Assembly (NCBI GenBank): GCA_945867815.1 | Contig: CAMBIX010000001.1 | Location: 124,001-188,000, forward strand | DNA from: an uncultured Veillonellaceae bacterium | GTDB lineage: Bacteria > Bacillota > Negativicutes > Veillonellales > Veillonellaceae | Length of the DNA stretch: 64,000 nt | Direction: 5' to 3' | Part shown: positions 39,161 to 43,971 of the stretch, one piece after another | Layout of the letters: the number at the start of each line of letters is the position of its first letter | Position numbering within the stretch: the first letter of the stretch is position 1 | Made by a program: the position numbers and the translations under genes | The notes under the pieces: generated by a model | The model's input: the letters and a program-made list of their open reading frames with translations, nothing else | Database searches by the model: none | What the model was told of the DNA's origin: nothing

Positions 39161-40159
39161 GTGGCAGAGGTAACATTAATTTATGGTGATGAATCACAGT
39201 TAGTAACGGAAGCGCGGGATAAGAAAATAGCTTCTTGGGGTTCATTAGAGGTAGAGACAATTAGAGAAGAAGCTGGTTTGCCTGCCATGATGTCTGCCTT
39301 ATGTGAGGACTCTTTATTTGGTGGGGTTAAGGGACTAGTCCTTCTTAATCCTCCGATTTTTCAAAGGGCTAATCGCAAGGTGAGCCCTGAAGCAGATGAG
39401 TTAAGAACATTGCTTTTAAATTATAAAGGAGATAATCCGGTCCTTATTATTTATATGGATACGATTGATAAGCGCTTGTCTCTTAATAAGAAGTTTTTAG
39501 GGGCTGTTCCGAATGAATCTTGTAAGCGCTTGGAAGGGGCGGCTCTTATTCAATGGCTTACTCAATATTGTAAAAAGAATGGTTATCAGTTGACTCTTGA
39601 CGGTATAGAATATATGGAACACCTACTTGAAGTGTGGCAGGATGTGTCGGTTACTTTTTTGCGGACAGAATTTGATCGTTTCTTTTTGCAATTAGGTGAT
39701 ACAAAGGAAATTGATAAAAATTTTTTATTAGCCAATAGCAGTTCTTACAGTGCTAAAAATATTTTTCTCTTTAAGGAAGCTTTACTTCATGGTGATGCAC
39801 ACACCTTAGAAGAGTTATTTCCCTATATGTTATCATATAAAGAGATTAATCGGGCTATGTCGTATATAGAAGGGCAGTTACGTTTGCAGCTTTTAGTTAG
39901 TGAGTGTCAAGCAGCAGGGTATAGTCAACGGCAAATAGAATCTTTAGTGAAAGAGTATGATTCTAAGATAAAGACTTATCCAATAAGATTAGCTTTTAGA
40001 GAGACGCGATTTGTATCTGTTGATGGATTAAAGAGATTACTTTATGACTTATATGAGATTGTTTATAAGAACCGAACGGAACAATTAGATATGTGGCGGT
40101 TTCGAGATGCTTGTTTAGCTTATTGTTATAAGATACAAGAGGTTCGACACCAGAGATAA
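39161..40159 (+). CDS. holA: DNA polymerase III delta subunit
   Basis: Clamp-loader subunit that opens the beta clamp. 332 residues; YGDESQLVTEARDKKI at the start, GGVKGLVLLNPP, a central FEGAALIQWL-like segment (RLEGAALIQWL) and the helical collar domain including FLFKEALLHGDAHTLEELFPYML. The GTG start at 39161 has AAGGAG upstream. It lies 13 bases after comEC, an arrangement also common in other Firmicutes. Confidence 0.93.
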   Translation: MAEVTLIYGDESQLVTEARDKKIASWGSLEVETIREEAGLPAMMSALCEDSLFGGVKGLVLLNPPIFQRANRKVSPEADELRTLLLNYKGDNPVLIIYMDTIDKRLSLNKKFLGAVPNESCKRLEGAALIQWLTQYCKKNGYQLTLDGIEYMEHLLEVWQDVSVTFLRTEFDRFFLQLGDTKEIDKNFLLANSSSYSAKNIFLFKEALLHGDAHTLEELFPYMLSYKEINRAMSYIEGQLRLQLLVSECQAAGYSQRQIESLVKEYDSKIKTYPIRLAFRETRFVSVDGLKRLLYDLYEIVYKNRTEQLDMWRFRDACLAYCYKIQEVRHQR

Positions 40160-40191
40160 GTAGTAGGAAAGTGGAAGTGCGGAGACATAAA

Positions 40192-43100
40192 ATGAAAGTT
40201 AGATATCATGTTGTATCTAAACAAGGACATAAGCCAGCTTTTTATATTGATGCGGATAAAGAAGCTGTCGCTATAAAAGCAGTAACACATTCTTTTACTG
40301 CTTTAGAAAAATTACAGGCACGTATGGATGCGTGGTATAAGACTAGGGGGATAGAGGTAAAAAAGGATAGCTTGGCAGATTCTGATCTTTTCTATCGTTG
40401 GAGTGGTGATAAGGATTATGATGAACTTCTTCATGCTTGCTATTCGTCAGGTGGTTGTGGTGTCGATGAACTTATTGAAGAAATAGAACGCTGTCAAAAG
40501 GAGAAATTAATGGCGCAAGGGCTTTCGGAAGAGGAAGCAGAGAAAGAAATTAATCCTTCACCAGATTTTGATACCTATGGCTTTGTAGAAGATGATGTAG
40601 AGGATAATCCAGCAAATACCTTTGATGATGGGGATTTTGCGCCCTTTGCGGATAGTACGGCTACGGCATTGCCTATTTATGATGTAAAACCAGTGACTGT
40701 AAATTATGTGGCAACAAAGCCGGTAAAGGCGGCTGCTTCGTCAGATTCAGCTTATGGTAAAGGCGGTGGAGGTAAGTATCGCCGCAAGAAGAATGTAACG
40801 GATCCAGGTATGCTCTTAGGACGAAATTTCTCAGGGGATCCGGTTTCTATTATTAACCAAATGGATACGGGGCGGAATATTATTTTCCGAGGCATTGTTA
40901 ATGGTATCGAAATTCGTCCGTTAAAGAGTGGCACGGCTCTTTTACAGGGACATATTGTTGATAAGACCAATAGTATTCATTTTACCAAGTTCATGGATTC
41001 AGAAGATGAGGCTAAGGTGTTAGCCAGTGCTTTAACAGGGTTTGGCAAGTTTACTTTTGATAAAAATATATGGACATTTAAAGATGCGGCAGCAGCTAAA
41101 GCTAAACATCTCCTGGTACAGGGTAATGTGATTTATGATGATCGTTTTGAACATGACTATGTATTTGACTTACGTAGTGCCAAGGACATAAAAGCAGAAA
41201 ATGTAAGAACAGAAGATAGAGAAGATTCTCGTGTTGAACTGCATTTACATACGCGTATGAGCGATAAGGACGCCTTAGTTGATGTAAAAGAATTAATTTC
41301 TCGCGTTAAGGAATGGGGGCATCCGGCGGTAGCTATTACAGACCATGGTGTGGTGCAGACCTTTCCTTTAGCCCAAGCGTTGGCAGCGGAAAAGGGCGTT
41401 AAGATTATTTATGGTATGGAAGGCTATTTAGTTGACGATGATAATATGAGTAAACGCTACCATATTATTTTATTAGCTAAGAACATGGTTGGATTGCGTA
41501 ACTTGTATAAACTGACGACTATGTCTCATTTGTGCTATTATAAGCGGCGTCCTTGTCTGCCCCGGTCTGTTATTGAAGATTATAGGGAAGGTTTGCTTTT
41601 AGGATCAGCTTGTGTTTTGGGCGAATTGATGCAAAATATCATAGCTGGTGCTTCTAAGGAACGTCTGTTAGAGATAGCTTCTTTTTATGATTATTTGGAA
41701 ATTCAGCCTTTATGTAATAATGAATTCTTAGTGCGCAGTCAGAAAGTGCCTGACGAAGAAGCCCTTATTGATATGGATAAGACTATTATTGAATTAGGGG
41801 ATGCTTTGCAGAAACCAGTTGTTGCGACTTGTGACGTTCATTTTTTAGACCCAGAAGATAAGGTGTATCGAGAAATTATGCTGACTGCTGTGGGTATGAA
41901 GGATGCTAAGTATCAGCCTGATTTGTATTTACGTACAACCGATGAGATGTTAAAAGAATTTTCCTATTTAGGAGAAGAAAAGGCCTATGAAGTGGTTGTT
42001 ACTAATTCACGTCGTATCAATGACAGCATTGAAGATATAAAGCCTTTACCAGATGGTACCTATTCACCTAAAATTGAAGGGGCCGAAGAAGCCTTGAGTG
42101 ATATGTGTTATAAAAAGGCAAAGCGAATTTATGGTGATCCTTTGCCTAAGGTTGTGCAGGACCGGTTAGACTACGAATTGTCTAACATTATTGGTCATGG
42201 GTTTGCCGTTTTGTACTATATTGCGCATAAACTAGTAAAGAAGTCTCTAGATGATGGGTATTTGGTAGGGTCTCGTGGATCTGTTGGCTCTTCTTTTGTT
42301 GCTACTATGGCGGATATTACAGAAGTAAATCCTTTGCCGCCTCACTATATCTGCCCTAAGTGTAAACATAGCGAATTTTTCTTAAAAGGAGAATATGCAG
42401 GCGGTTTTGATTTGCCACGTAAAAAATGTCCTGACTGTGGCACCGAAATGGATATGAATGGTCATGACATTCCCTTTGCTATTTTTATGGGTTTTAATGG
42501 GGATAAGGTGCCAGATATTGATTTAAATTTCTCTGGTGATTATCAGCCACGAGCTCATAAGTACACAGAAGAATTGTTTGGTCGTGATAATGTATTTAGG
42601 GCTGGTACAATTGGTACGATTGCACAAAAAACAGCGGTTGGGTATGCCCGTAAGTATGCAGAAGTCAATGGTCTTCAAGTACGAAAGGGATTTTTAGAGC
42701 GTTTAGCTGAAGGGGTAGCTGGCGTAAAAAATACGACGGGCCAACATCCGGGCGGTATCGTTGTATGTCCAAGGGATATGGATATTCATGAATTTACTCC
42801 TGTCCAGTATCCAGCTAATAAGAAAGATAGTGGCATTATTACGACTCACTTTGATTTCCATTCTTTTGAAGGACGTATTACTAAGCTGGATATCCTGGGA
42901 CATGATGATCCTACCATTATTCGTATGTTAGAAGATATTACTGGTGTTGATGCAAAGACTATACCTTTTGATGATAAAAAAGTATTAAGTTTATTTTCTT
43001 CGACGGAAGCCATTGGGTTAACGCCAGAACAACTGCAAGGAGATAAGGTAGCCTCCTTAGCGGTACCTGAATGTGGGACGAGTTTTGTACGGCGTATGCT

Positions 43101-43971
43101 GGAAGATTCTAAACCGCAATGTTTTTCTGATATTGTTCGTATATCTGGCTTTTCTCATGGGACTAATGTATGGCTTGATAATGCGCAAACTTTGATTAAG
43201 GATGGCACGTGTAAGTTGAATGAAGCGATTTCAACGCGTGATGATGTGATGAACTATTTGCTGCATCGAGATATTACACCACTCACTTGTTTCTCTGTTA
43301 TGGAAAATGTTCGTAAAGGGCGGGGCATTGAAAAGAAGAACAAGCAAGGTGAACCAATTACTAACTACGAAGAACAAATGCGAGAAGGCGGTGTGCCAGA
43401 ATGGTTTATTACAGCTTGCAAAAAGATAGGCTATTTGTTCCCGCGGGCGCATGCCGTAGCCTATGTAATGATGGCCTTTCGTATTGCTTGGTTTAAGATT
43501 AATTATCCTCTGGCTTTTTATGCAGCTTATTTCTCTATTCGTGCTAAGGCCTTTGATGTGCGGGTTATGCAGGGAACGATTGAAGAACAATTAGCTGAGT
43601 TCAAGCGCCTGCGTCGCTTAGAAGATGAACATAAGGCGGGACCACGGGATAAGGACATGATTAGTGCCCTTGAAGTATCCATGGAAATGGTACAACGTGG
43701 CTATCAGTTTAGTAATGTTAGTCTTTTACATTCTGAGGCTAAGCGTTTTCAGATACGAGACGGTAAATTATTGCCGCCTTTATTGGCTGTTGACAGCTTA
43801 GGGGAAAAGGTGGCTTTATCTATTATCAGTGAACGAGAAAAACGACCTTTTGTATCGATAAAAGAATTACAGCAGCGATGCAAGGTGTCGCAAACGATTA
43901 TTGAAACTATGCGCGAACTGGATTGTTTGGATGGCTTGCCAGAAGATGCACAGATGAGTCTTTTTGGTTAA
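40192..43971 (+). CDS. polC: PolC-type DNA polymerase III alpha subunit lacking a visible exonuclease insert
   Basis: Replicative polymerase, about 1259 residues. Domains: N-terminal region (1-200), OB fold (about 215-325), PHP (VELHLHTRMSDKDA near 347, AITDHG), zinc module CPKCK and CPDCG (about 720-750), active site PDIDLNFSGDYQ (about 773), HPGGIVVCP, HFDFHSFEG and LDILGHDDPT. Standard PolC carries a 3'-5' exonuclease inserted in PHP after YGMEGYLVDD; here the sequence continues directly with MSKRYHIILLAKN, and the protein is about 170 residues shorter than Bacillus PolC. ATG 40192 has CGGAG at good spacing; GTG 40171 is an alternative. Confidence 0.95.
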   Translation: MKVRYHVVSKQGHKPAFYIDADKEAVAIKAVTHSFTALEKLQARMDAWYKTRGIEVKKDSLADSDLFYRWSGDKDYDELLHACYSSGGCGVDELIEEIERCQKEKLMAQGLSEEEAEKEINPSPDFDTYGFVEDDVEDNPANTFDDGDFAPFADSTATALPIYDVKPVTVNYVATKPVKAAASSDSAYGKGGGGKYRRKKNVTDPGMLLGRNFSGDPVSIINQMDTGRNIIFRGIVNGIEIRPLKSGTALLQGHIVDKTNSIHFTKFMDSEDEAKVLASALTGFGKFTFDKNIWTFKDAAAAKAKHLLVQGNVIYDDRFEHDYVFDLRSAKDIKAENVRTEDREDSRVELHLHTRMSDKDALVDVKELISRVKEWGHPAVAITDHGVVQTFPLAQALAAEKGVKIIYGMEGYLVDDDNMSKRYHIILLAKNMVGLRNLYKLTTMSHLCYYKRRPCLPRSVIEDYREGLLLGSACVLGELMQNIIAGASKERLLEIASFYDYLEIQPLCNNEFLVRSQKVPDEEALIDMDKTIIELGDALQKPVVATCDVHFLDPEDKVYREIMLTAVGMKDAKYQPDLYLRTTDEMLKEFSYLGEEKAYEVVVTNSRRINDSIEDIKPLPDGTYSPKIEGAEEALSDMCYKKAKRIYGDPLPKVVQDRLDYELSNIIGHGFAVLYYIAHKLVKKSLDDGYLVGSRGSVGSSFVATMADITEVNPLPPHYICPKCKHSEFFLKGEYAGGFDLPRKKCPDCGTEMDMNGHDIPFAIFMGFNGDKVPDIDLNFSGDYQPRAHKYTEELFGRDNVFRAGTIGTIAQKTAVGYARKYAEVNGLQVRKGFLERLAEGVAGVKNTTGQHPGGIVVCPRDMDIHEFTPVQYPANKKDSGIITTHFDFHSFEGRITKLDILGHDDPTIIRMLEDITGVDAKTIPFDDKKVLSLFSSTEAIGLTPEQLQGDKVASLAVPECGTSFVRRMLEDSKPQCFSDIVRISGFSHGTNVWLDNAQTLIKDGTCKLNEAISTRDDVMNYLLHRDITPLTCFSVMENVRKGRGIEKKNKQGEPITNYEEQMREGGVPEWFITACKKIGYLFPRAHAVAYVMMAFRIAWFKINYPLAFYAAYFSIRAKAFDVRVMQGTIEEQLAEFKRLRRLEDEHKAGPRDKDMISALEVSMEMVQRGYQFSNVSLLHSEAKRFQIRDGKLLPPLLAVDSLGEKVALSIISEREKRPFVSIKELQQRCKVSQTIIETMRELDCLDGLPEDAQMSLFG

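Follow-up and report, generated by a model that had tools for sequence, protein, structure and literature searches.

An exonuclease-less PolC from a Veillonellaceae genome, with its PHP domain as the candidate proofreader

The PolC-type DNA polymerase III alpha subunit encoded in the DNA analysed here (the window, a stretch of 64,000 nucleotides from an uncultured Veillonellaceae bacterium) lacks the DEDDh exonuclease insert (Exo), and the remainder of PolC is intact. PolC usually has this proofreading exonuclease built in, inserted in the PHP domain. Sequence comparison leads us to favour, with moderate confidence, an ancient loss of Exo, with the PHP domain of the window PolC as its most likely proofreader.

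The protein, whose length is counted from an ATG with an alternative in-frame GTG at 40171 (Table 1), clearly belongs to the PolC family. It exceeds the cut-offs of both NCBIfam PolC equivalogs (NF001688, 1415 bits against 873; TIGR01405, 1302 bits against 1043), each of which matches in two stretches, the main one from residue 420, past the Exo site. The catalytic Asp pair, the zinc-binding cysteines, a clamp motif close to the published consensus QL[S/D]LF (PMC3919608) and an OB fold N-terminal to PHP are all present. With the polymerase, OB, zinc and clamp-binding parts retained, the protein would still act as a clamp-bound replicative polymerase. Pfam places DNA_pol3_alpha, finger and HHH_6 domains beside PHP and finds weak NI/NII matches in the N-terminal region of other Negativicutes PolCs. 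PolC and DnaE1 are each present once in the window's genome, which has no further C-family polymerase; a second, Exo+ PolC was looked for there and ruled out, as none was found.

Table 1. Features of polC and its upstream neighbour, in window positions; residue numbers are those of the window PolC
Feature	Position	Strand	Basis
holA-like clamp-loader delta subunit, directly upstream of polC	39161..40159	+	PF21694
polC, 1259-aa Exo-less PolC-type DNA polymerase III alpha	40192..43971	+	NCBIfam NF001688, TIGR01405
N-terminal region, residues 1-205, divergent	40192..40806	+	no Pfam NI/NII match in the window PolC
OB-fold region preceding PHP, the PolC order; residues about 225-340	40864..41211	+	3f2b alignment; AlphaFold2 strands
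PHP first part (347-415), ligands H351, H353, D360, H385, E410	41230..41436	+	Pfam, PolC alignment
Exo insertion site, reduced to a 13-residue beta-turn (411-423); ~200-aa DEDDh exonuclease in other PolCs	41422..41460	+	alignments, AlphaFold2
PHP second part (424-560), ligands H424, C474, D548, H550	41461..41871	+	Pfam, PolC alignment
Zinc motif Cys 721/724/746/749	42352..42438	+	sequence, 3f2b alignment
Catalytic Asp 775 and 777 (PDIDLNFS)	42514..42522	+	invariant across 90 aligned PolCs
C-terminal clamp-binding pentapeptide QMSLF	43951..43965	+	sequence; resemblance to published consensus

The absence of Exo is confirmed by several comparisons. Around the insertion site the protein reads ...KIIYGMEGYLVDDDNMSKRYHIILLAKN..., so that YGMEGYLVDDD passes directly into NMSKRYHIILLAKN. 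The sequence-only reading had described just this passage from YGMEGYLVDD into the second half of PHP, with no exonuclease insert and with the OB, zinc and polymerase motifs intact, and the follow-up agrees: PHP is a single continuous Pfam domain (349-505), the four cysteines and both aspartates are in place, and the OB region aligns with that of the Geobacillus kaustophilus PolC structure 3f2b. A Pfam scan found no RNase_T domain anywhere in the chain, even at E<=1. Two Exo+ PolCs of the same phylum, run as positive controls, gave RNase_T matches nested in PHP (E 1e-37 and 1e-42), which indicates that the same scan would have detected Exo if it were present. Aligned to the Enterococcus faecium PolC (9qpc, 1474 aa), the window protein matches through 9qpc residue 432 and again from 635; the Exo domain of that enzyme comprises 211 residues between PHP strands 3 and 4 (PMC12592400). 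Residues 200-1259 were modelled with AlphaFold2 (pLDDT 77, pTM 0.59; PHP mostly 80-95): at the Exo site, a tight turn connects two strands, and the top PDB match of the model in Foldseek is 3f2b, from which Exo had been deleted for crystallisation (PMC12592400). The canonical Exo+ architecture, with a DEDDh domain of about 200 residues inside PHP, is thus not that of the window PolC. It is highly improbable that an exonuclease is nevertheless present, diverged beyond recognition or located elsewhere in the chain. Residues 1-205, which have no Pfam match, would be the place to look for it, but this N-terminal region is common to Exo+ and Exo-less PolCs, and its relatives match NI/NII. At the insertion site, 13 residues leave no space for such a domain, and distant DEDDh proteins of the same genome match RNase_T at 2e-14 or better. 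The Pfam scan, the model and its Exo-deleted best match all led us to reject a hidden Exo.

The short junction was found in every Negativicutes PolC examined, ruling out a chance effect or an assembly artefact. Exo is absent from all of the roughly 90 PolCs that we surveyed in this class. Queried with the window PolC, 299 of 300 class genomes gave a match, a few at DnaE level only, and among the PolC-level matches listed, complete frames are about 1200-1350 aa long and none has an Exo+ layout. Two longer frames (1553-1555 aa, in G221 and G284) were considered as Exo+ PolCs and rejected, as they have the short junction and carry their surplus length at the N terminus. The segment from YGxE to LAKN spans 17-49 residues in 90 aligned Negativicutes PolCs, a few of them fragmentary, and no RNase_T match fell within a PolC-sized frame in 38 representative genomes of the class. 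In the genus g2, a Lys/Glu-rich linker lies at the Exo site, with segments of 39-41 aa. Beyond the class, we read 60 PolCs from about 55 families of the phylum, of which 37 are Exo-less and 23 Exo+. Their junctions form two length classes, 16-31 and 214-220 aa, plus a single linker of 88 residues, low in complexity and rich in Ala, Pro, Asp and Glu (Exo-less PolC L188 of family f92). One family, f85, contains both Exo+ and Exo-less PolCs. About 33 of 139 phylum genomes gave DnaE-level matches only and apparently lack PolC. Two genomes of family f14 each hold a stand-alone frame of about 420 aa with 48-49% identity to PolC residues 335-623, the PHP region (G062:C1:258299-259177 and G011:C26:53459-54334). 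The Exo-less architecture itself is not new: it was reported in 2013 in Clostridia and Negativicutes, at 6% of PolCs (Timinskas et al., PMC3919608). It is much commoner than that, though the two samples differ. As this architecture was already published and is the rule in its class, the window PolC is less exceptional than the sequence-only reading had suggested.

How often has Exo been lost? On a tree of 86 PolCs, built without the junction columns, the Exo state changes at minimum 11 times, and at least six of these changes are forced by well-supported branches; the deep forks are uncertain, as the tree comes from a quick search under a simple model. Rooted on an Exo+ tip, it holds 13 Exo-less clades, one of which gathers 25 of the 26 Negativicutes rows alongside two other families. 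For the 23 Exo+ PolCs, a tree of the Exo domain agrees with a tree of the rest of the protein (Mantel r 0.65, 0 of 2000 permutations). One old insertion followed by vertical inheritance and repeated loss would produce such agreement. Judging from these trees, repeated loss would most simply account for the state changes, with regain at the same site the less likely course. The DEDDh domain would then have disappeared long ago, in or before the Negativicutes ancestor, leaving the short beta-turn behind. The PolC of one genome placed in the class (L039, in G019 of family f22) groups with a PolC of another class (L153), pointing to transfer, misplacement or contamination.

The sequence-only reading had left proofreading to a separate DnaQ-like protein or to PHP itself, and the window's genome holds both candidates. 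The nine ligands of the PHP metal site read HHDHEHCDH in the window PolC, in keeping with the pattern HHDHEH[C/H]DH of PHP-type proofreading polymerases (PMC12926913). The same nine are present in 83 of the 89 aligned Negativicutes PolCs whose site is complete and in each of the 37 Exo-less PolCs from other classes, and only one Exo-less lineage departs from them. Intact ligands are nearly as common in Exo+ PolCs (22 of 23 sampled), suggesting that their retention permitted the loss of Exo rather than responding to it; for the same reason, the ligands may be conserved because the metals serve the structure. What favours PHP as the general proofreader is a set of near-complete Exo-less genomes without a detectable DEDDh protein: in 14 such genomes of 92-100% completeness, among them the four Negativicutes G002, G015, G023 and G058, the RNase_T profile gave no match at E<=0.1. 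The genomes surveyed are mostly drafts, and this profile could overlook an exonuclease that has diverged or has another fold. For 13 of the 14, the PolC was read and its PHP site found intact; G023 was assessed by frame length only. In these genomes, PHP is the remaining known candidate. Taken together with the conserved ligands and the homologous activity of DnaE1 described below, this suggests that errors of the window PolC are most likely removed by a metal-dependent 3'-5' exonuclease of its own PHP domain. The papers that we read report no exonuclease activity for a PolC PHP domain. A lead comes from a 2015 evolution experiment with the Negativicute Sporomusa ovata, which yielded the PHP-domain substitution E587K in a gene called polC1, for which the authors proposed PHP proofreading (PMC4632017); polC1 may encode a PolC. 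Also counting against PHP proofreading are the free DnaQ of the window's genome and one genus that does without both Asp ligands.

This genus, g4, belongs to the window's own family, and in all six of its PolCs Asn replaces both Asp360 and Asp548. By alignment, these positions are Asn in the Thermus aquaticus structure 3e0d and Asp in 2hpi, and they are the equivalents of D23 and D226 in Mycobacterium tuberculosis DnaE1, where D23N or D226N each abolishes the exonuclease (PMC5636811). The g4 PHP domain has also diverged: its identity to outgroups is 0.514, compared with 0.600 in sister genera (a difference of -0.086; paired Wilcoxon test over columns, which are not independent of phylogeny, p 3e-4). 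With the ligand neighbourhoods removed, the values are 0.476 and 0.543 (p 0.01), and the adjoining stretch 561-640 likewise shows excess divergence (p 0.015); the same paired comparison found none in OB, palm or C terminus. As g4 is one clade, the divergence counts as a single event, and its centring on PHP indicates that this domain is under constraint elsewhere. The DnaE1 of g4 keeps its PHP ligands, and the genus retains the free DnaQ, with a QDTFF or QDAFF tail. The simplest reading of these alignments would be that function normally keeps PHP under constraint in Exo-less PolCs and that this constraint was relaxed in g4, where another proofreader was available. Two g4 genomes also encode extra DnaE-type polymerases, with the ligand strings ITDHEHCDH (L251, possibly truncated at the N terminus) and HHDHEHCDH (L252).

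The separate DnaQ-like protein was found in a search for free DEDDh proteins, which returned four in the window's genome (L001-L004, all 2e-14 or better with the RNase_T profile). Three were set aside as proofreaders, as their architecture or best family indicates other roles. L001 (L001:1108-2010, G000:C8:90315) is a 300-aa Cas2e-DEDDh fusion directly after cas1, with the type I-E model TIGR01873 over its cut-off, and L002 (L002:7-2601, G000:C7:89319) is an 864-aa UvrD/PcrA-like helicase with an inserted DEDDh domain; similar frames of 844-922 aa occur in two families of the order, f1 and f2. L004 is KapD-like. The fourth, P0002 (L003, G000:C4), is a free DnaQ-like exonuclease of 206 aa with a DEDDh active site and an RNase_T fold, although it does not pass the curated DnaQ/epsilon models (NF004844, 218 bits against a cut-off of 373; TIGR00573, 59.6 against 71.5). 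We consider it possible, but rather unlikely on the comparative evidence, that P0002 is the main proofreader, its C-terminal tail tethering it to the sliding clamp and so to PolC, and that it acts in trans as epsilon does. Every one of the 61 Veillonellales genomes has a homologue, g4 with its two missing PHP ligands included; the DEDDh residues are conserved in all 48 homologues aligned; and in the PDB it is related to the PolC Exo domain and to Escherichia coli epsilon. Each of the 28 homologues from the window's family ends in Q-x-x-F-F, although the linker in front differs between them; this ending resembles the clamp motif and PolC's own QMSLF. However, this tail is absent from most other Negativicutes families, and the four DEDDh-negative Negativicutes named above manage without such a protein. 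In other classes, close homologues accompany both Exo+ (G321, G367) and Exo-less PolCs (G350, G396) and do not track Exo loss, which weakens free DnaQ as a general substitute. In the window's family, P0002 may share or back up the role that we ascribe to PHP.

More doubtful still is that DnaE1, with its intact PHP and clamp motif, carries out the high-fidelity bulk synthesis, leaving PolC as something other than the main fork polymerase and free to dispense with proofreading. Timinskas et al. raised this possibility (PMC3919608), the DnaE1 PHP site keeps its ligands in each of the 12 Negativicutes genomes that we checked (the window's and 11 others, G002 and G015 among them), and the phylum genomes without a PolC-level match fit it. 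Against it, the polymerase residues of PolC are invariant and almost all Exo-less lineages retain its PHP ligands, while the Negativicutes genomes with low or no PolC match are mostly incomplete or fragmented, G125 (99%) being one exception. Proofreading by the PHP domain of PolC remains our preferred reading.

In the broadest form of this reading, which we offer as a tentative hypothesis, PolC has lost Exo repeatedly in numerous Firmicutes lineages since PHP alone proofreads, sometimes where the genome encodes no DEDDh protein at all; one Veillonellaceae genus would then have lost the PHP site as well, a clamp-tethered free DnaQ taking over. New here are the extent of the Exo-less architecture, its repeated origin by loss, the genomes without a detectable DEDDh protein and the genus in which two ligands are naturally replaced. 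PHP proofreading in PolC is hard to test where the enzyme also carries Exo; natural Exo-less PolCs in genomes without another detectable DEDDh exonuclease make it directly testable, with g4 as a natural negative control. This bears on how bacteria with PolC and DnaE1, a replication system described in 2013 as experimentally uncharacterised, hold their mutation rate low.

Finally, we would like to place this PolC beside better-known replicases. A Zn-dependent PHP 3'-5' exonuclease is a known activity of T. aquaticus and M. tuberculosis DnaE1, to which the window PolC is linked by nine identical metal ligands in the alignment; PHP proofreading has been demonstrated there and is proposed here for PolC. 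E. coli epsilon works in trans, and P0002 resembles it as a free DEDDh exonuclease (match E 1e-8) with a clamp-motif-like tail, but falls under the NCBIfam DnaQ/epsilon cut-offs. With canonical PolCs (9qpc, 3f2b), the window protein shares the OB fold before PHP, the zinc module, the polymerase core, the HhH region and the C-terminal clamp motif, but it lacks the 211-residue Exo and has Asp548 where both have Asn. Among the closest known systems is also the variant described by Timinskas et al. (PMC3919608), to which the window PolC belongs: PHP without an Exo insert, a conserved PHP metal site, a DnaE1 partner and the same bacterial class. That survey put the variant at 6% of PolCs, whereas in our data it is the normal form in Negativicutes and makes up most of the 60 PolCs sampled, with at least six state changes, and in one genus it has also shed two PHP ligands.
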